DNA of 64,000 bases, taken from NCBI GenBank assembly GCA_017471925.1, contig JAFURM010000028.1:1-64000 (forward strand), read 5' to 3'. The notes beneath the pieces were generated by a model, which saw only the letters and a program-made list of their open reading frames with translations, was not told the origin of the DNA and made no database searches. The stretch comes from Bacteroides sp. (GTDB lineage Bacteria; Bacteroidota; Bacteroidia; Bacteroidales; Bacteroidaceae). The translations under genes and the position numbers were made by a program. Below, piece by piece: positions 5,030 to 12,144 of the stretch (the first letter of the stretch is position 1; every line of letters starts with the position of its first letter).

Positions 5030-5104
5030 GGGCGTTTAGCTCAGCTGGTTCAGAGCATCTGCCTTACAAGCAGAGGGTCGGCGGTTCGAATCCGTCAACG
5101 CCCA
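5030..5104 (+). tRNA. tRNA-Val (anticodon UAC), copy 1
   Basis: The cloverleaf is readable: acceptor GGGCGTT/AACGCCC, D arm GCTC..GAGC, anticodon stem TCTGC/GCAGA with loop CTTACAA (anticodon TAC, Val), T arm GGCGG-TTCGAAT-CCGTC, discriminator A. This is the only copy with an encoded 3' CCA (5105-5107). Confidence 0.95.
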
Positions 5105-5134
5105 CCAATCTATCCTCACTTTCGTTGCTCAAAA

Positions 5135-5209
5135 GGGCGTTTAGCTCAGCTGGTTCAGAGCATCTGCCTTACAAGCAGAGGGTCGGCGGTTCGAATCCGT
5201 CAACGCCCA
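5135..5209 (+). tRNA. tRNA-Val (anticodon UAC), copy 2
   Basis: Identical in its mature part to copy 1, with loop CTTACAA. The CCA is not encoded (the sequence continues ACGAAG). It begins the first of two 111-bp tandem units. Confidence 0.95.
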
Positions 5210-5245
5210 CGAAGAGATTCATAGATGTCATCTACAGATGATGAC

Positions 5246-5320
5246 GGGCGTTTAGCTCAGCTGGTTCAGAGCATCTGCCTTACAAGCAGAGGGTCGGCGG
5301 TTCGAATCCGTCAACGCCCA
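5246..5320 (+). tRNA. tRNA-Val (anticodon UAC), copy 3
   Basis: Identical cloverleaf with anticodon TAC and no encoded CCA. It starts exactly 111 bp after copy 2. Confidence 0.95.
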
Positions 5321-5356
5321 CGAAGAGATTCACAGACGTCATCTACAGATGATGAC

Positions 5357-5431
5357 GGGCGTTTAGCTCAGCTGGTTCAGAGCATCTGCCTTACAAGCAG
5401 AGGGTCGGCGGTTCGAATCCGTCAACGCCCA
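5357..5431 (+). tRNA. tRNA-Val (anticodon UAC), copy 4
   Basis: Identical cloverleaf with anticodon TAC and no encoded CCA. It starts exactly 111 bp after copy 3 and is followed by the terminator at 5469-5508. Confidence 0.95.
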
Positions 5432-5528: not shown

Positions 5529-6302
5529 TTACTTGATGTTTCCCCTGATTTTCGTGAGGTAACGCTTCATGCCTTCGGCATCTTTTTGGGAGATGATGTC
5601 CAACAGGTCATTCAGCTCGGTGCGGATGCTCTCCACCTGGGCGGGGGTGTGGGGATTGAAGAGTACTTCCTGCAACAGGTAGTCGTCTTCGTTGAGCACA
5701 CCGCGCGCGATAGCCATGTGGCGCTTGAAGGTGGTGCCCGGGGCATCCTGGTGTTTCATCACCGCCGCAAAGACGAAGGTGGAAACAAACGGGATGGAGA
5801 GGGAGTAGGCCACCGTCTCGTCGTGACCGCTGAAGGTGTACTCGAAGATGTTGAGCCCCAGTTCCTGATAGAGGTCCTTGAAGAATATCTTGCCCATGTG
5901 GTCGCCTTCGCTGATGATGATGGCGTTCTCCGTGCTCAGCTTGTCCAGGTTGGCAAAGGTGGGGCCGAACATGGGATGGGTGGAGACGTAGCGGAAGCCG
6001 CTCTCTTCATAGAACTCTTTCAAGCCGGTCTTCACCGAGGCGATGTCGCTGATAATGCAGTCCTTGGGGAGGACGGGAAGTATCTGTCGGAAGGCTTCCA
6101 GCGTGTATTTCACCGTGACGGCATTGATGACCAGCTCGGGTCTGAACTCCCGGATTTCCTCCAGGGTGGTGAAGCGGTAGGTGTTGTAGACAAAGCGCAG
6201 TTGCTGCGGATTGATGTCGAACACGGCCGTCTCGTGCTTGAAACTCAGCACGTCGGTGAAGAATGAGCCCATCTTGCCGGCTCCTAATATCAGTATTCGC
6301 AT
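5529..6302 (-). CDS. tyrA: Prephenate dehydrogenase
   Basis: 257 residues. The N-terminal Rossmann motif MRILILGAGKMGSFF and the acidic residue of VFDINP fit NAD(P) binding; HPMFGPTF is the conserved prephenate dehydrogenase motif. It converts prephenate to 4-hydroxyphenylpyruvate for tyrosine in the cytoplasm. It is shorter than enteric TyrA because it lacks a chorismate mutase domain, which here is on the neighbouring DAHP synthase. It is the last gene of the aromatic operon, 11 bp after the DAHP synthase, and should come under the Phe/Tyr leader at 9440-9601. Confidence 0.9.
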   Translation of the reverse strand: MRILILGAGKMGSFFTDVLSFKHETAVFDINPQQLRFVYNTYRFTTLEEIREFRPELVINAVTVKYTLEAFRQILPVLPKDCIISDIASVKTGLKEFYEESGFRYVSTHPMFGPTFANLDKLSTENAIIISEGDHMGKIFFKDLYQELGLNIFEYTFSGHDETVAYSLSIPFVSTFVFAAVMKHQDAPGTTFKRHMAIARGVLNEDDYLLQEVLFNPHTPAQVESIRTELNDLLDIISQKDAEGMKRYLTKIRGNIK

Positions 6303-6313
6303 GATGATGGAGG

Positions 6314-7381
6314 TTATTTATTGATGATTTCCATCTGTTGGCGTACGCTCTCTTCGTGGATGGCTTCGAACACCTTCTTGATGAACTCGCTGTCCATGCC
6401 GCAGAGGGCACCCTGGGAACCGCGCTTCTCCAGAATCTCGTTGTAGCGGCCTGTCTGGAGGATGGTCATGCCGTGTTCCTTCTTGTAGGTACCGATTTCG
6501 CGGGCTACGCGCATACGTTTGGCCAGAATCTGAATCAGTTCGTTGTCACACTCGTCTATCTGCTTGCGCAGTTCGTTCAGGTTTTCCGTGGTCTGCTTCT
6601 CCTGACGGATGACGAGGAGGTTCAGGATGTAGTCTAATACGTCGGGAGTGACTTGTTGCTTGGCATCGCTCCAGGCACAGTCGGGGCTGCAGTGGCTCTC
6701 GATGATGAGTCCGTCGAAGCCCAGGTCCATAGCCTGCTGGCACAGGGGAGCCACCAACTCGCGCTTGCCACCGATGTGGCTGGGGTCGCAGATGATGGGC
6801 AGGTTGGGAATGCGGCGACGCAACTCGATGGGGATGTGCCACTGCGGGAGGTTGCGGTAGATGGTCTTGTCGTAGCTGCTGAAGCCGCGATGGATGGCAC
6901 CCAACTGCTTGATACCGGCCTGATTGATACGCTCCATGGCACCAATCCACAGTTCCAGGTCGGGGTTTACGGGATTCTTCACCAGTACGGGGATGTCCAC
7001 ACCTTTCAGTGCATCGGCAATCTCCTGCACGGCAAAGGGGTTGGCCGTGGTGCGTGCGCCAATCCACAGGATGTCGATGCCGGCCTTCAAGGCTTCGAAG
7101 ACGTGCTTGGCCGTAGCGACTTCCGTGCTGACGTACATGCCGGTCTCCTGCTTGACATGCTTCAGCCAAGTGAGGCCCTCTACGCCGATGCCTTCAAAAC
7201 CACCCGGCTTGGTGCGGGGTTTCCAGATGCCTGCGCGGAATATCTTGATACCTTTGCCGGCCAGTTGGCGGGCGGTGTCCATGACTTGTTCTTCGGTCTC
7301 GGCACTGCAAGGGCCGGCGATGACCAGCGGGCGTTCTTCCTCGACGCCCTGCAAACGGATGGGTTCTAATTGAAGTTCCAT
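6314..7381 (-). CDS. DAHP synthase / chorismate mutase fusion
   Basis: 355 residues in two parts. Residues 1 to about 260 are a KDPG/KDSA-like DAHP synthase (VIAGPCSAETEEQ, KPRTKPGGFEGIG, ICDPSHIGGKRE), which condenses phosphoenolpyruvate and erythrose 4-phosphate. Residues about 270-355 are an AroQ-type all-helical chorismate mutase (LNELRKQIDECDNELIQILA, REIGTYKKEH). One protein therefore supplies both the entry step of the shikimate pathway and the step to prephenate, next to the enzymes that consume prephenate. It lies 26 bp after the aminotransferase and 11 bp before tyrA in one operon. Confidence 0.92.
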   Translation of the reverse strand: MELQLEPIRLQGVEEERPLVIAGPCSAETEEQVMDTARQLAGKGIKIFRAGIWKPRTKPGGFEGIGVEGLTWLKHVKQETGMYVSTEVATAKHVFEALKAGIDILWIGARTTANPFAVQEIADALKGVDIPVLVKNPVNPDLELWIGAMERINQAGIKQLGAIHRGFSSYDKTIYRNLPQWHIPIELRRRIPNLPIICDPSHIGGKRELVAPLCQQAMDLGFDGLIIESHCSPDCAWSDAKQQVTPDVLDYILNLLVIRQEKQTTENLNELRKQIDECDNELIQILAKRMRVAREIGTYKKEHGMTILQTGRYNEILEKRGSQGALCGMDSEFIKKVFEAIHEESVRQQMEIINK

Positions 7382-7407: not shown

Positions 7408-8592
7408 TTATTTGTTTTCCAATCTCTTGATGCGTTCCAAGGCTTCGGCCAGCTTATCGTCCTTGCAGCAGAGGGAGATGCGGATGTAGCGGTTGCCGTT
7501 GCTGCCGAAGATGAAGCCGGGGGTGAGGAACACGCGGGCTTCATGGAGTACACGCTCGGTCAGTTCCTCCACATTGCCGCAGGAGTCGGGGATGCGTCCC
7601 CAAAGGAACATGCCCACCTGTCGCTTGTCGTAGGCGCAGCCCAGAGTGTCCATGATGGCACCGGCCAGAGCGCGGCGGTTGGCGTAATTGCGGTTGTTGC
7701 CGGCATACCAATCCTGTTCGGCCTCTAAGGCAGTGGCGGCAGCCAGCTGCATGGCGCGGAACATGCCGCTGTCGATGTTGCTCTTCACCTTCAGTACCCA
7801 CTGGATGAAGTCGGCATTGGAAGCCAGCATGGCGATGCGCCAGCCCGGCATGTTGTGGCTCTTGCTCATGGAGTTGAACTCGATGCAGCACTCCTTGGCA
7901 CCCGGCACGTTGAGGATGCTCAGCGGGTGGTCGTTCAGGATGAAGCTGTAGGGGTTGTCGTTCACGATGACAATCTGCTTGCGGCGGGCAAAGTCCACCA
8001 GCCGTTCGTACAGTTCGGGGGTGGCATTGGCACCGGTGGGCATGTTGGGGTAGTTGGTCCACATCAGCTTCACACGCGAGAGATCCATCTGCTCCAACTG
8101 TTCCCAGTCGGGCATCCAGCCGTTCTCCTCCTTCAGGTCATAGTTGACGACCTCCGCGCCCAATATCTTGCTCAGTGAGGTGTAGGTGGGGTAGCCCGGA
8201 TTGGGTACCAGTACCTGTTCGCCCGGATTCACGAAGGCCAGCGTGACGTGCAGGATGCCCTCCTTGGAACCGATGAGTGGCTGGATTTCCGTCTTGGGGT
8301 CGAGCTCCACGCCGTACCACTTCCGGTACCAGTCGGCGAAGGCCTGACGCAGTTCGGGCACTCCCACATAGGGCATGTAGCCGTGTCCGTCGGGGTTGTG
8401 GGCCTCCGTGCAGAGCCGTTCTATGGCCTCTTGTGAGGGGGGCATGTCGGGACTGCCTATGCCCAGACTGATGACGTTCTTGCCTTCGGCATTCATTTGG
8501 GCCACTTCTTTCAGCTTGCGCGAGAAGTAGTATTCGCTTACGCTTGCCAAACGGTCGGCCGGTCGTATCTTAGTTGATGCTTGATTTCCCAT
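7408..8592 (-). CDS. PLP-dependent aromatic/aspartate-type aminotransferase
   Basis: 394 residues, class I/II fold. Visible motifs: VLVPNPGYPTY, NYPNMPTGA, IVNDNPYSFI and the PLP-lysine segment FNSMSKSHNMPGWRIAM (SxSKxxxMxGWR). Between pheA and the DAHP synthase-mutase, it probably transaminates phenylpyruvate, 4-hydroxyphenylpyruvate or prephenate, though the family also includes LL-diaminopimelate aminotransferases. Its start overlaps the end of pheA by 23 bp, suggesting translational coupling. Confidence 0.85.
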   Translation of the reverse strand: MGNQASTKIRPADRLASVSEYYFSRKLKEVAQMNAEGKNVISLGIGSPDMPPSQEAIERLCTEAHNPDGHGYMPYVGVPELRQAFADWYRKWYGVELDPKTEIQPLIGSKEGILHVTLAFVNPGEQVLVPNPGYPTYTSLSKILGAEVVNYDLKEENGWMPDWEQLEQMDLSRVKLMWTNYPNMPTGANATPELYERLVDFARRKQIVIVNDNPYSFILNDHPLSILNVPGAKECCIEFNSMSKSHNMPGWRIAMLASNADFIQWVLKVKSNIDSGMFRAMQLAAATALEAEQDWYAGNNRNYANRRALAGAIMDTLGCAYDKRQVGMFLWGRIPDSCGNVEELTERVLHEARVFLTPGFIFGSNGNRYIRISLCCKDDKLAEALERIKRLENK

Positions 8593-9421
8593 CTTCGTAT
8601 TCTCCTAATATTTTAAGTTCCTTGATCAACGGCATGATGGCCGCAATGGATTGTTTGTATCTCAGTACGTTGTCGAACACCACGTCTACGTAGAACTGGT
8701 ATTCCCATTCCCTTCCGATGATGGGCAGGGACTGGATTTTGCTCAGGCTGATGTGGTAGAAAGAGAGGATGGAGAGCACCTGCGAGAGGCTGCCTTCCGT
8801 GTGGGGCAGGGTGAAGACCATGCTGGCCTTGTTTACCTCCTTGCTGCGGTAGCGGTTCAGTTCGTCCACCTGCCAAGGGTCGGCCACTACGAGGAAGCGG
8901 GTGAAGTTGTGTTTGTTGGTCTCGATGCCGTCCTGCAGCACCTTCATACCATACATCTCGGCGGCTCCCTTGGCGCAGATGGCCGCATGGCCTTTCAGTT
9001 GCTCCTTCATGATGATTTCGGCACTCAGGGCGGTGTCTTCGGCCTCCACTACCTTCATGCGGGGGTGGCGGCTCAGGAACTCGCGGCATTGCATCAGGGC
9101 GATGGGGTGGGAGTTGACCTCTGTGATGTCTTCCCAATCCTCTTGGGGCAGGCAGCAGATGCAGTGGGAAATGCGCAGCTTGTGCTCGCCTACAATCTGT
9201 ACGTTGCTCTGCTTCAGCAGTTCATAGTTGTGCAACAGGCTGCCGGCAATGGTGTTCTCTATGGCACAGAGACCGATGACCTGGCTGTCCTGCCTGATGG
9301 CTTCGAACACCTCCTCAAAGGTGGCACAGCAAATCAGCTCTATCTCCTCACCCTCAAAGTAGCGGTGGGCTGCAATGTCGTGGAAGGAACCGAGGGTTCC
9401 CTGGATGGCGATTCTCCTCAT
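8570..9421 (-). CDS. pheA: Prephenate dehydratase
   Basis: 283 residues. The N-terminal dehydratase domain starts RIAIQGTLGSFHDIAAHRYF and includes LCAIENTIAGSLLHNY. The conserved Thr-Arg-Phe motif appears as NFTRFLVV (near 190). The C-terminal ACT domain (SMVFTLPHTEGSLSQVLSIL, then KIQSLPI) is the usual phenylalanine-binding regulatory module. It makes phenylpyruvate from prephenate. No chorismate mutase domain is fused here. It is the first structural gene of the operon; its ATG lies about 20 nt after the leader hairpin. Confidence 0.92.
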   Translation of the reverse strand: MRRIAIQGTLGSFHDIAAHRYFEGEEIELICCATFEEVFEAIRQDSQVIGLCAIENTIAGSLLHNYELLKQSNVQIVGEHKLRISHCICCLPQEDWEDITEVNSHPIALMQCREFLSRHPRMKVVEAEDTALSAEIIMKEQLKGHAAICAKGAAEMYGMKVLQDGIETNKHNFTRFLVVADPWQVDELNRYRSKEVNKASMVFTLPHTEGSLSQVLSILSFYHISLSKIQSLPIIGREWEYQFYVDVVFDNVLRYKQSIAAIMPLIKELKILGEYEDGKSSIN

Positions 9422-9439
9422 ACTTTCTGTTCAAACGAA

Positions 9440-9541
9440 GAATCCCGCCTCAATGAATGGAGCGGGATTCATATCTTTGTTTTAAGTTCTTCTTTAAGTT
9501 CTTAAGCATCACTGTCACTTGACACATACAAACTCCCGCTC
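9440..9541 (-). promoter_or_regulatory. Predicted Phe/Tyr attenuator (terminator versus antiterminator)
   Basis: On the minus strand, GAATCCCGC (9470-9462) and GCGGGATTC (9448-9440) form a perfect 9-bp hairpin with a 13-nt loop, followed by TTCGTTTG, just before pheA. An upstream segment inside the leader ORF, GAGCGGGA (9541-9534), is perfectly complementary to TCCCGCTC (9467-9460). That pairing can extend past one bulged G through TTTGTAT (9532-9526) with ATATGAA (9474-9468). The two structures share the CCCGC arm and exclude each other. A ribosome stalled in the Phe/Tyr run leaves the upstream segment free; one reaching the stop codon covers it. The U tract is weak, so control of pheA translation is also possible. 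Confidence 0.75.
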
Positions 9542-9601
9542 TACTCTTTGGCTAAAGTAAAAGTAAAAAAAGAAGTAATATGCGTAAGCAAATAGGTTCA
9601 T
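9515..9601 (-). CDS. Phe/Tyr-rich leader peptide
   Basis: A 28-codon ORF, ATG at 9601-9599 and TGA at 9517-9515, starting about 30 nt after the -7 box. The peptide begins MNLFAYAYYFFFYFYFSQRV. In residues 4-16, 6 are Phe and 5 are Tyr, with two Ala. The operon it precedes makes exactly Phe and Tyr. This is the arrangement of the E. coli pheA leader peptide, but sensing both amino acids. The last codons form the 5' arm of the antiterminator. Confidence 0.8.
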   Translation of the reverse strand: MNLFAYAYYFFFYFYFSQRVEREFVCVK

Positions 9602-9631
9602 GCTTTTAGTCTCTTGTTTTGGTTTACGCGA

Positions 9632-9661
9632 CAAAGGTAATGCTTTTCTTTGAAATGCAAA
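9632..9661 (-). promoter_or_regulatory. Promoter of the Phe/Tyr operon
   Basis: TTTG (9661-9658), an 18-bp spacer and TACCTTTG (9639-9632) on the minus strand: a full Bacteroidetes consensus promoter. The leader RNA before pheA is about 200 nt. Confidence 0.8.
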
Positions 9662-9711
9662 CAAAATTCCATCTTTTTTTGTCATTGTCGCTCGTTTTGA
9701 TACTTCGAAAC

Positions 9712-12144
9712 TCAGAGCTTGACGGAAGTGCGCTTGCCTACGTAGCTGACAACGTGGGCTGAGGGAACCGGTGTGCCGAAGGCCGGTGTCTCTGCATTGA
9801 CCACTACCACTCTGAACGTGCGCTTCTGCAACATGCCGTCGTAGGCACCCTGGCGGGCCTCGATGGTGAGGCGGCGGCTGCGATCGTTCCAGCTGAAGCG
9901 GATGGTGCTGCGCTTGCCCTGTTCGTAGTCATAGCTCTCGCCGTCGTCCTCATAGAGGGTGAAGCTGGCATCGCTTCCCGGGTAGATGCGTATCTCCAGT
10001 TCGTCCCAAGGCTTTTGGCCTATCCACTGTACGTCGGGGCCTACGGGCAGGATGCTGCCTTCCCGCACAAAGGTGGGGGCCTTGTCGATGGTGGTTGCTA
10101 CCTCGATGGTCTGTCCGCCTTCGTGACGGCTGTTGGTCCACAGGTCATACCAGGCACATCCCTGGGGCAGGTAGACCTCCTGGCTCTTGGGAGCGGTGAA
10201 GTCTACGGGTGTTTCGCTGTAGGTGGGTTCTTCGTCGGTGTATTGGGCATGGAGCACGGGGGCGGCCATGACGCTCTTGCCGAAGAGGAACTGGTCGTTG
10301 CAGTCCCACGTCTGCTTGTCCTTGGGGAACTCCATGAAGAGCGCCCGCATGAAGCTGCCGCGCTCATTCGTCACGTCCCATGCCGTGGAGTAGATGTAGG
10401 GGAGCAGGGCGTAACGTTGCTTGATTCCGCTGCGGATGGCCTCATAGATGGTTTCGCCCGGTTGGCCGAACTGATAGATTTCACGCTTCACCTCTGTGCC
10501 ATGGGAGCGCATCATGGGGTTGTAGAGGGCATATTGCAGCCAACGCACGTAGAGTTCCTGGAAACGCGGGCTCTTGTAGCCCGGTCCGCTGCCACCCTGT
10601 TCGTTGTAGCGGTTGGCGAAGAAGCCGCCGATGTCGGTATTGAAGTGAGGGGCACCTGTCAGCGTGTAGTTCAGTCCGGCAGGTACTTGTGCACGCAGCA
10701 CTTTCCAGTCGGAAATGACATCGCCCGACCACACGTTGGCGGCATAGCGCTGCTGTCCGGCGAAGTAGGAGCGGGTCAGGATGAAGACGCGCTTGGCATC
10801 GGGCTGTTGGCGGATGTGGTCGTACACTCCACCCACGCCTACCAGCGGGAAGGCGTTGCGCACACTGCGCCATGAACCCATAGCGGTCTGCACTTCATAG
10901 TCTGCCTCTTTGGCGTCCACATGGTCAGGGTCGGTGGAGTCCATCCACCATGACTCGATGCCCAACGCGTATAGACGCGTCAGGTGTTGCCAGTATATGT
11001 CACGCGCTTCGCGACTATAGGGATCATAGAGTCTGACTCCGGAGGGATATTCGCTGCGTGGCGGCCAGGTGCTCGGACCGTGAGGCGGCCAGGTCTTTAC
11101 ATCGTCCAGCAAGTGGCCCTTGGCTTCCAGTTCCTTGTAGGGAAGGGTCTGGGGACCGAAGGAGGACCAGATGGATATCATGCTGTGGGCATTCAGGGCC
11201 TTGATGTCGTCCACCATCTTTTGCGGGTTGGGGAACTCTTCGTTCAGGAAGTCCATGGCGTTCCACAGGTAGTTGCTGCCCCAGTATTGCCAGTCCTGGA
11301 TGATGCCGTCCAAGGGGACACCCAGCTCACGGTAGCGACGCACCACTTCCACAATCTCGGCCTGGGAACGGTAGCGCTCGCGTGACTGCCAGAAGCCATA
11401 GCTCCAGAGGGGCATCATGGGCACGTCACCGGTCAGCCGACGCAACTGGGCCACGACGCCATCATTGTCTTCACCCCACAGGAAGTAGTAGTTCACGCAG
11501 TGGCCTACCTCAGAGGTGAAGCTTGTCTCCTGCTCGGAGTCGTTGAAGTCGGTGGGTGAATAGTTGTCCCAGAACAGGCCGTAGCCCTTGATGGACTGCA
11601 TCACGTGGGCATAGTCTTCCAGATTGGACTGCATCATCTTGCGGTTCTCGCCGCGCAGGTTCATCTTGCCGTTCTGCATGATGCCCAGTCCGTAGATGGC
11701 CTCTTCCTTGTCGAGGACAAACGACTGTCTCACCACGTAGGCTCCCCGGTCGGCACCCGAGGCGCGTGGGGTGAAGGCGGCTTGCCGTTCACGCAACAGG
11801 GGGGTGCCTGTGGCGGTGGCAAAGGTGACGCTGCCGGTGGCTTTGTCCACTCGGACGGTCAGGGTGCTGCTCTTCAGTGTCAGCGTGGATGCCGTTTCGC
11901 TGCTCTTGACGCGGACGGCTTCAGGTGTCATGACGACGGAGAGACTGCTGTCGCGGTGTTGGGCAATGTTCTCAGGGTGTTTGGTCACTCTCACGATGCC
12001 GGGGGCATAGAAGGTGATTCGGGTGGTCAGTGCCTCCTGGGAGGCTTTCACGGTGTGACTGCTGCCAATGTCAGTCGTGGGCTGTGCGCAGACCGTTGCG
12101 ATGCACGCAAGGAGGACTGCAAGAAAGGTTTTTGCTCTCTTCAT
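9712..12144 (-). CDS. GH31 alpha-glycosidase, probably alpha-xylosidase-like
   Basis: 810 residues with a signal peptide (MKRAKTFLAVLLACIATVCA-QPT), so exported. The N-terminal galactose-mutarotase-like domain is followed by the GH31 barrel. ESWWMDSTDPDH carries the likely nucleophile Asp402, and NVWSGDVISDW the likely acid/base Asp475. GAPHFNTDIGGFF follows, as in Bacteroides alpha-xylosidase-like GH31 enzymes. The C-terminal beta domains include a DUF5110-like segment (IRIYPGSDASFTLYEDDGES). The substrate could be an alpha-xyloside or alpha-glucoside; motifs alone do not decide. It lies 37 bp after the TPR gene and may be read through from it. No SusC/D pair is nearby. Confidence 0.87.
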   Translation of the reverse strand: MKRAKTFLAVLLACIATVCAQPTTDIGSSHTVKASQEALTTRITFYAPGIVRVTKHPENIAQHRDSSLSVVMTPEAVRVKSSETASTLTLKSSTLTVRVDKATGSVTFATATGTPLLRERQAAFTPRASGADRGAYVVRQSFVLDKEEAIYGLGIMQNGKMNLRGENRKMMQSNLEDYAHVMQSIKGYGLFWDNYSPTDFNDSEQETSFTSEVGHCVNYYFLWGEDNDGVVAQLRRLTGDVPMMPLWSYGFWQSRERYRSQAEIVEVVRRYRELGVPLDGIIQDWQYWGSNYLWNAMDFLNEEFPNPQKMVDDIKALNAHSMISIWSSFGPQTLPYKELEAKGHLLDDVKTWPPHGPSTWPPRSEYPSGVRLYDPYSREARDIYWQHLTRLYALGIESWWMDSTDPDHVDAKEADYEVQTAMGSWRSVRNAFPLVGVGGVYDHIRQQPDAKRVFILTRSYFAGQQRYAANVWSGDVISDWKVLRAQVPAGLNYTLTGAPHFNTDIGGFFANRYNEQGGSGPGYKSPRFQELYVRWLQYALYNPMMRSHGTEVKREIYQFGQPGETIYEAIRSGIKQRYALLPYIYSTAWDVTNERGSFMRALFMEFPKDKQTWDCNDQFLFGKSVMAAPVLHAQYTDEEPTYSETPVDFTAPKSQEVYLPQGCAWYDLWTNSRHEGGQTIEVATTIDKAPTFVREGSILPVGPDVQWIGQKPWDELEIRIYPGSDASFTLYEDDGESYDYEQGKRSTIRFSWNDRSRRLTIEARQGAYDGMLQKRTFRVVVVNAETPAFGTPVPSAHVVSYVGKRTSVKL

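Follow-up and report, generated by a model that had tools for sequence, protein, structure and literature searches.

The RNA leader of a four-gene aromatic amino acid operon in Bacteroides sp. is very probably a ribosome-mediated transcription attenuator with the logic of an OR gate, responding to a shortage of either Phe or Tyr. Ribosome-stalling attenuation was put forward in the original prediction, and it is supported by the conservation of the leader and its stems, by co-variation, and by a leader composition that follows the content of the operon. The operon lies on the minus strand of the window, i.e. the whole 64-kb stretch of DNA analysed here, which comes from a 2.87 Mb Bacteroides genome in 59 contigs. 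It comprises pheA for prephenate dehydratase (8570..9421), a PLP aminotransferase gene overlapping the end of pheA (7408..8592), a DAHP synthase/chorismate mutase fusion (DAHPS/CM, 6314..7381), and tyrA for prephenate dehydrogenase (5529..6302); neighbouring genes overlap or are at most 30 nt apart. The names are those of the best NCBIfam matches, all four of which scored under the curated cut-off (for pheA, NF008865 with 189 bits against a cut-off of 219; for tyrA, 52 bits, far below the cut-off). A genome search gave a single pheA match and a single match to the TyrA of the window. Just past the end of tyrA, four tRNA genes stand in a row on the plus strand (5030-5431), with identical Rfam scores and starts spaced 105-111 nt apart.

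The consensus promoter proposed at 9661-9632 of the minus strand is represented by a promoter-like pair, TTTG (9661-9658) and TACCTTTG (9639-9632), with an 18 nt spacer. The pair is of the Bacteroidetes type, for which the consensus TTTG / TAnnTTTG has been described (PMC7366714); a scan of 9200-9800 for E. coli-type promoters found nothing. Among relatives, 122 of 146 loci have TAnnTTTG no more than 90 nt ahead of the leader, as against 40 of 730 shuffles. As a separate observation, the same genome contains a His-rich leader ORF, MNRNMTHHHHHHHSGE (L002, G000:C5, locus positions 1554-1604), which precedes a putative hisG, judged by translation. The promoter region of this His leader shares 82% identity with approximately 9665-9617.

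The leader ORF occupies 9515..9601 on the minus strand and encodes MNLFAYAYYFFFYFYFSQRVEREFVCVK followed by a stop. It agrees exactly with the predicted 28-codon leader, whose residues 4-16 include 6 Phe and 5 Tyr; one further Phe, at residue 24, falls outside this run. The control codons 4-16 (9554..9592, minus strand) also constitute RNA strand 1. On either strand of the 64 kb, this was the only short ORF with at least 7 Phe/Tyr per 13 residues. A chance ORF was ruled out, since none of 2,000 dinucleotide shuffles of the leader region reached the observed 11 Phe/Tyr. The window thus holds a short ORF, predicted to be translated, that is rich in codons for the end products of the operon and is conserved in relatives.

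Downstream of the control codons, three further strands of the minus-strand RNA can form two mutually exclusive stems. Strand 2 (9526..9541), the 5′ strand of the antiterminator, has its core GAGCGGGA (9541-9534) within the 3′ codons of the leader, and this core is complementary to 9467-9460, as expected from the competing pairing originally proposed. Strand 3 (9460..9470) is common to the antiterminator and the terminator and co-varies with strand 2. The predicted 9-bp hairpin of 9470-9462 with 9448-9440 is present as well, pairing GAATCCCGC with GCGGGATTC, the latter being strand 4 or the 3′ arm of the terminator (9440..9448); its folding energy is -17.7 kcal/mol. The U-tract that follows (TTCGTTTG, 9432..9439, minus strand) is weak, as had been noted, because it has only 5 T of 8 and a strict terminator scan of 9200-9800 found none. 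The 206-nt leader RNA folded better than 200 of 200 shuffles (z -3.6).

In the proposed mechanism, transcription would start near 9625, as judged from the promoter, and the 28-codon leader would be translated as the RNA emerges. When charged tRNA-Phe or tRNA-Tyr is scarce, the ribosome would stall within codons 4-16 and cover strand 1, while strand 2 (9541-9526) would stay exposed and could pair with strand 3 (9470-9460). With strands 2 and 3 paired, no terminator hairpin would form, and in consequence pheA, the aminotransferase gene, DAHPS/CM and tyrA would be transcribed. When both amino acids are plentiful, the ribosome would run on and cover strand 2, strand 3 would pair with strand 4 (9448-9440), and transcription would end near 9435. 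We infer from the sequence that termination occurs at the 9470-9440 hairpin in this species, and that both Phe and Tyr starvation act on the leader.

Folding with a ribosome mask (footprint -16..+13) reproduced a switch of this kind, in which a stalled ribosome left strand 2 free and an advancing one covered it. In the nascent RNA, before strand 4 is made, the 2:3 pairing probability was 0.96-1.00 with the ribosomal A-site at codons 1-16, 0.45 at codon 17, and 0.00 at codons 18-27, which places the switch point right behind the last control codon. A second footprint (-14..+16) moved this boundary by one codon. In the full RNA at equilibrium, the terminator was favoured except with the ribosome at codons 11-13 (or 10-12, if the second footprint is used), and the outcome must therefore be decided by kinetics. 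The 2:3 pairing was also still possible in the nascent RNA with the ribosome at the stop codon (0.98) or with no ribosome (0.93), and the off state would therefore have to rely on an earlier pairing of strands 1 and 2. In RNA that does not yet extend to strand 3, the MFE structure (-29.6 kcal/mol) contains a hairpin of the control codons with strand 2, which could hold the off state.

The stems and the leader are widely conserved. A first search of relatives located such a leader upstream of pheA in 27 of 29 loci, the window included; one of the two misses was at a contig end, and the other was a Bacteroides genome, G020, discussed below. A second, larger set comprised 168 loci, some of them duplicated and thus not all independent. 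The upstream stretch was 250 nt or longer in 165, and a Phe/Tyr leader, a terminator and strand 2 were present in 146 of the 165. This check could have refuted the original prediction, and the prediction withstood it. The loci of the set take in contigs of Bacteroides, Phocaeicola and Prevotella, as well as other families of the class. Outside the order of the window, 22 families were sampled; leader and terminator were found in 12 of them (in 32 of 47 loci overall) and in none of the loci of the other 10. Co-variation of the stems, which had been suggested as a check, was likewise observed. Over 50 families, each represented by one locus with the start of strand 2 no more than 20 nt away, the 2:3 helix score was 20.8 for a family's own strands, 15.2 for swapped and 12.4 for shuffled ones, and none of 20,000 permutations did as well. 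Together with the folding, this co-variation argues for mutually exclusive antiterminator and terminator hairpins. A family's own strand 3 was the best or tied-best partner for only 10 of the 50 families (median rank 4), probably because many families have similar stems.

What is conserved appears to be the RNA and not the peptide. A GCGGG strand-2 motif within 45 nt past the last Phe/Tyr codon was present in 92 of 146 loci, and in 86 of these 92 it stood at 14-15 nt. Its reading frame relative to the leader varied: 56 loci had it in frame 2, 25 in frame 0 and two in frame 1, whereas in nine it coincided with the stop codon or followed it. The constant spacing and the varying frame indicate that the RNA and its spacing are kept while the peptide changes. 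These observations bear on the possibility that the ORF product is a small Phe/Tyr-rich protein acting in trans, e.g. in the membrane, for which one may cite the peptide VEREFVC, common to most Bacteroides leaders seen. However, in relatives the RNA motif sits in other frames or past the stop codon, and the composition of the leader follows the operon. A functional small protein was rejected because the frame of the conserved RNA changes, and we give it very little probability.

The terminator-like features of the relatives are relevant to a further alternative, mentioned already in the original prediction, that the switch acts on translation, with the hairpin 18 nt before pheA blocking the access of ribosomes. 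The weak U-tract of the window and the short distance to the pheA start are compatible with it. Yet the U-tracts of relatives are better, with 4-8 T in 8 (at least 4 T being a condition preset in the finder), and the hairpin-to-ATG distance ranges from 7 to 245 nt across the 146 loci. A hairpin of -12 kcal/mol or lower before a T-run was found in 66 of 70 loci, but in none of 70 shuffled sequences, one having been made for each locus; these 70 loci were every second of the 146 loci, with intervals of at most 200 nt, and were preselected for having a terminator. Moreover, Bacteroidetes are described as being without classical Shine-Dalgarno sequences (PMC7366714). Given the better U-tracts and the variable distance, translational control of pheA is the less likely reading, and we regard it as distinctly improbable.

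Transcription attenuation that reads both amino acids would make sense of the way the leader codons tend to track the genes behind them. We sorted 180 loci by these genes, using a detection score that treats Phe and Tyr alike. Leader and terminator were detected in 73 of 85 loci with pheA and tyrA, 19 of 24 with pheA and DAHPS and no tyrA in the stretch, all three with pheA and an aminotransferase at contig edges, and 7 of 26 with pheA alone. For tyrA operons the counts were 13 of 19 where the operon is split (pheA elsewhere in the genome) and 14 of 18 in genomes with no pheA match; in three of the four misses in the latter class, the contig extended less than 250 nt beyond the first gene on its upstream side. 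The loci L268, L270, L275 and L276, counted as tyrA without a pheA match, are all without leader plus terminator. DAHPS-only loci gave 0 of 5, and in total 51 of the 180 loci had no leader plus terminator by the criteria used.

The pheA+tyrA leaders contained both Phe and Tyr codons in 86 of 86 cases, and the Phe share of their codon cluster, averaged over family means, was 0.56 (49 families). The mean share rose to 0.96 in pheA-alone leaders (4 families), where the cluster lacked Tyr in five of seven, and fell to 0.25 in tyrA leaders of genomes without pheA (12 families), where 4 of 19 lacked Phe. Relative to pheA+tyrA, the Mann-Whitney p values were 0.0011 for pheA alone (4 vs 49 families) and 3.8e-6 for tyrA without pheA (12 vs 49 families). 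Family means were intermediate for pheA+DAHPS (0.64, p = 0.061), pheA+aminotransferase (0.65) and split tyrA (0.45, p = 0.024); all these p values treat families as independent, which is strictly untrue. Operons that retain DAHP synthase thus mostly have dual leaders even when split, as the split tyrA and pheA+DAHPS means illustrate. We also observed a Trp codon inside the Phe/Tyr run in 29 of the 150 leaders that make up the six classes with leaders (e.g. L164, L280, L320-L323); perhaps these codons are tied to DAHP synthase serving all three aromatic amino acids.

The shift is visible within single families. The Phe share was 1.0 for pheA alone, 0.47 for both genes and 0.40 for split tyrA in f83, and 1.0 for pheA alone, 0.62 for split tyrA and 0.33 for tyrA without pheA in f102. 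Further pairs were 1.0 and 0.49 (split tyrA) in f92, 0.83 and 0.38 (split tyrA) in f158, 0.50 (both genes) and 0.17 (tyrA without pheA) in f177, and 0.38 and 0.20 in f88. In f142 the values hardly differed (0.49 and 0.44), and in f70, f84, f101, f105 and f126 there was little or no shift from pheA+DAHPS to pheA+tyrA. One genome, G536, has a pheA leader with seven Phe and no Tyr, and a tyrA-operon leader with four Phe and six Tyr. Within the genus of the window, the 90% complete genome G020 has pheA followed by DAHPS/CM, with no aminotransferase gene between them, and a search for tyrA gave no match there beyond a partial profile hit (E 2e-5). Its leader, MKPFQFFARSFSFCFRTVKAGREVACAE, contains six Phe but lacks Tyr, and both the terminator and strand 2 are kept.

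The match between the codons of the leader and the amino acids for which the operon provides is therefore a trend, not a strict rule. A rule that Tyr codons occur only if tyrA is in the genome fails, owing to ten exceptions without a strong tyrA match. We searched for tyrA in 15 genomes, and 11 had no strong match; among these, the leader of G020 is Phe-only, and the other ten genomes, from four families, keep Tyr codons before pheA+DAHPS. Six of the ten belong to f56 (G223, G116, G146, G175, G245 and G199, the last counted on its leader alone), one to f60 (G119), two to f53 (G198 and G143) and one to f70 (G215). Our guess is that phenylalanine hydroxylase might provide a route to Tyr in such genomes, and genes beyond the four searched could explain them. 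On the Phe side, G412, G506 and G479, from the family of the window, have no pheA match, yet each has three Phe codons in the cluster. In the same family, the only pheA match of 16 genomes of two genera (L227-L242) is divergent (E ~1e-33 to 1e-36) and lies in an open frame 383-452 codons long, and a strong match to tyrA is missing; of the nine examined, none had a leader plus terminator.

The exceptions are of interest for an alternative in which Phe alone is sensed and the Tyr codons are passive, being kept for the pairing of strand 1 or by history. The Tyr codons in the ten genomes without a strong tyrA match would fit it, and so would the precedent of the C. glutamicum aroR leader, for which Phe limitation was effective and Tyr availability was reported to have no effect (PMC11802643). 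Against it stand the clusters without Tyr, which occur in the Bacteroides genome G020, where tyrA had no strong match, and in five of the seven leaders before pheA alone. The excess of Tyr over Phe in most operons of genomes without a pheA match, where four of 19 leaders have no Phe at all, also speaks against it. We therefore consider sensing of Phe alone unlikely. Dual Phe/Tyr sensing is strongly suggested by the comparison of sequences.

The leader of the window is a single module, and some relatives appear to have two. Candidates with two leader-terminator modules in series were found at 21 loci in 17 families, and in 18 of the 21 pairing within modules exceeded pairing across them (p = 0.0002). 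Two candidates, L159 and L282, were discarded because their first module was implausible, with gaps of 16 and 1 nt between the last Phe/Tyr codon and the stem. This left 19 loci in 15 families (L179, L192, L267, L271, L280, L281, L285, L310, L323, L327, L328, L359, L363, L364, L366, L377, L380, L381 and L384). Own and cross-module pairing were equal in L281, and cross-module pairing was slightly better in L310. On balance, we lean towards the view that in Bacteroidia one attenuator family serves as an evolvable aromatic sensor: a Phe/Tyr OR gate whose codon mix would be re-tuned with the gain and loss of pheA and tyrA, and whose tandem forms, in about 15 families, may give steeper or combined logic.

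If the attenuator operates as proposed, classical leader-peptide attenuation would extend to the main aromatic operon of a dominant gut phylum. The supply of Phe and Tyr by gut Bacteroides bears on the aromatic metabolism of the host. Since leader codon content and operon content change together in a natural set of gains and losses, the sensed amino acids may be readable from the sequence, with the exceptions given above. The mechanism class is known; the new elements are its breadth, the composition trend and the tandem modules in about 19 loci. Our search of the open PMC literature found no description of a Phe/Tyr leader of this kind or of the composition trend. On attenuation by leader peptides in Bacteroidetes, and on leader attenuators arranged in tandem, it brought up only the precedents named here.

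We also compared the leader with known RNA families. T-boxes read tRNA in other phyla, and a T-box or another known RNA family could in principle be the sensor. The only Rfam matches of the window at the gathering threshold, however, were the four tRNAs, so that the leader of the aromatic operon had none above threshold. The stretch 9400-9700 gave just two hits, Phe_leader (E 0.075) and RUF4 (E 0.43), both far below threshold. With no match to a T-box model in the window or in 9400-9700, a T-box or riboswitch was rejected, and we leave such a sensor hardly any probability. By mechanism, the leader of the window is most likely a ribosome-mediated attenuator. Membership in Phe_leader (RF01859) was rejected too, as the score of 23.5 bits falls short of the gathering threshold of 55; this sub-threshold match spans the same stretch, 9434-9589. 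Bacteroid-trp (RF01692), described as a likely cis-regulatory motif of Bacteroidetes (PMC2864571) and hence from the same phylum as our leader, gave no match at gathering in the window, nor at E ≤ 1 in 9400-9700.

Phe leaders, such as those of E. coli pheA and pheST, are textbook cases (PMC11802643). The leader of the window resembles that of E. coli pheA (pheL) in being a leader peptide upstream of pheA that would sense Phe-tRNA (PMC11802643). Unlike pheL, it has five Tyr codons and precedes a four-gene operon for Phe and Tyr, and it comes from another phylum and differs in sequence. In C. glutamicum, the aroR leader places Phe-Tyr-Phe residues before the DAHPS gene aroF and acts by ribosome stalling (PMC11802643); it is likewise a Phe/Tyr leader before an aromatic pathway gene, with only three such residues. 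An “attenuator sensing tyr-tRNA” is entered for aroF in a table that cites a 1980 study of E. coli aroF-tyrA (PMC2659441). As listed there, Tyr would also be read before a DAHP synthase gene, but in Proteobacteria and as Tyr only.

Within the phylum, a study of Flavobacterium psychrophilum reported structured 5′ elements ahead of pheA and hisG, together with clues that amino acid operons are attenuated through leader peptides (PMC9723704). The pheA element had no Rfam match and occurs in other Flavobacteriaceae too; the account of these elements mentions no Phe/Tyr composition, dual reading or composition rule (PMC9723704). For B. thetaiotaomicron, there is a general mention of short ORFs that resemble leader peptides (PMC7366714). 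With regard to the tandem modules of relatives, the closest likeness is to Salmonella mgtCBR, whose tandem attenuators, called a singular example, involve two leader ORFs in one leader RNA (PMC3641672). As described, mgtCBR differs in its signals, ATP and proline, and in its target, and the window has one module.

In E. coli, thrL and ilvL are single leaders that read several amino acids made by one operon. They are multi-amino-acid leaders like ours, but read Thr/Ile and Leu/Val/Ile, not Phe/Tyr. Both the thr and ilv operons of E. coli are listed as attenuated (PMC1183508). The claim that a dual leader falls outside textbook systems therefore holds only in part: multi-amino-acid leaders (thr, ilvGMEDA) are textbook material, whereas a dual Phe/Tyr leader is unusual, though, in view of these leaders and of C. 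glutamicum aroR, not unprecedented.
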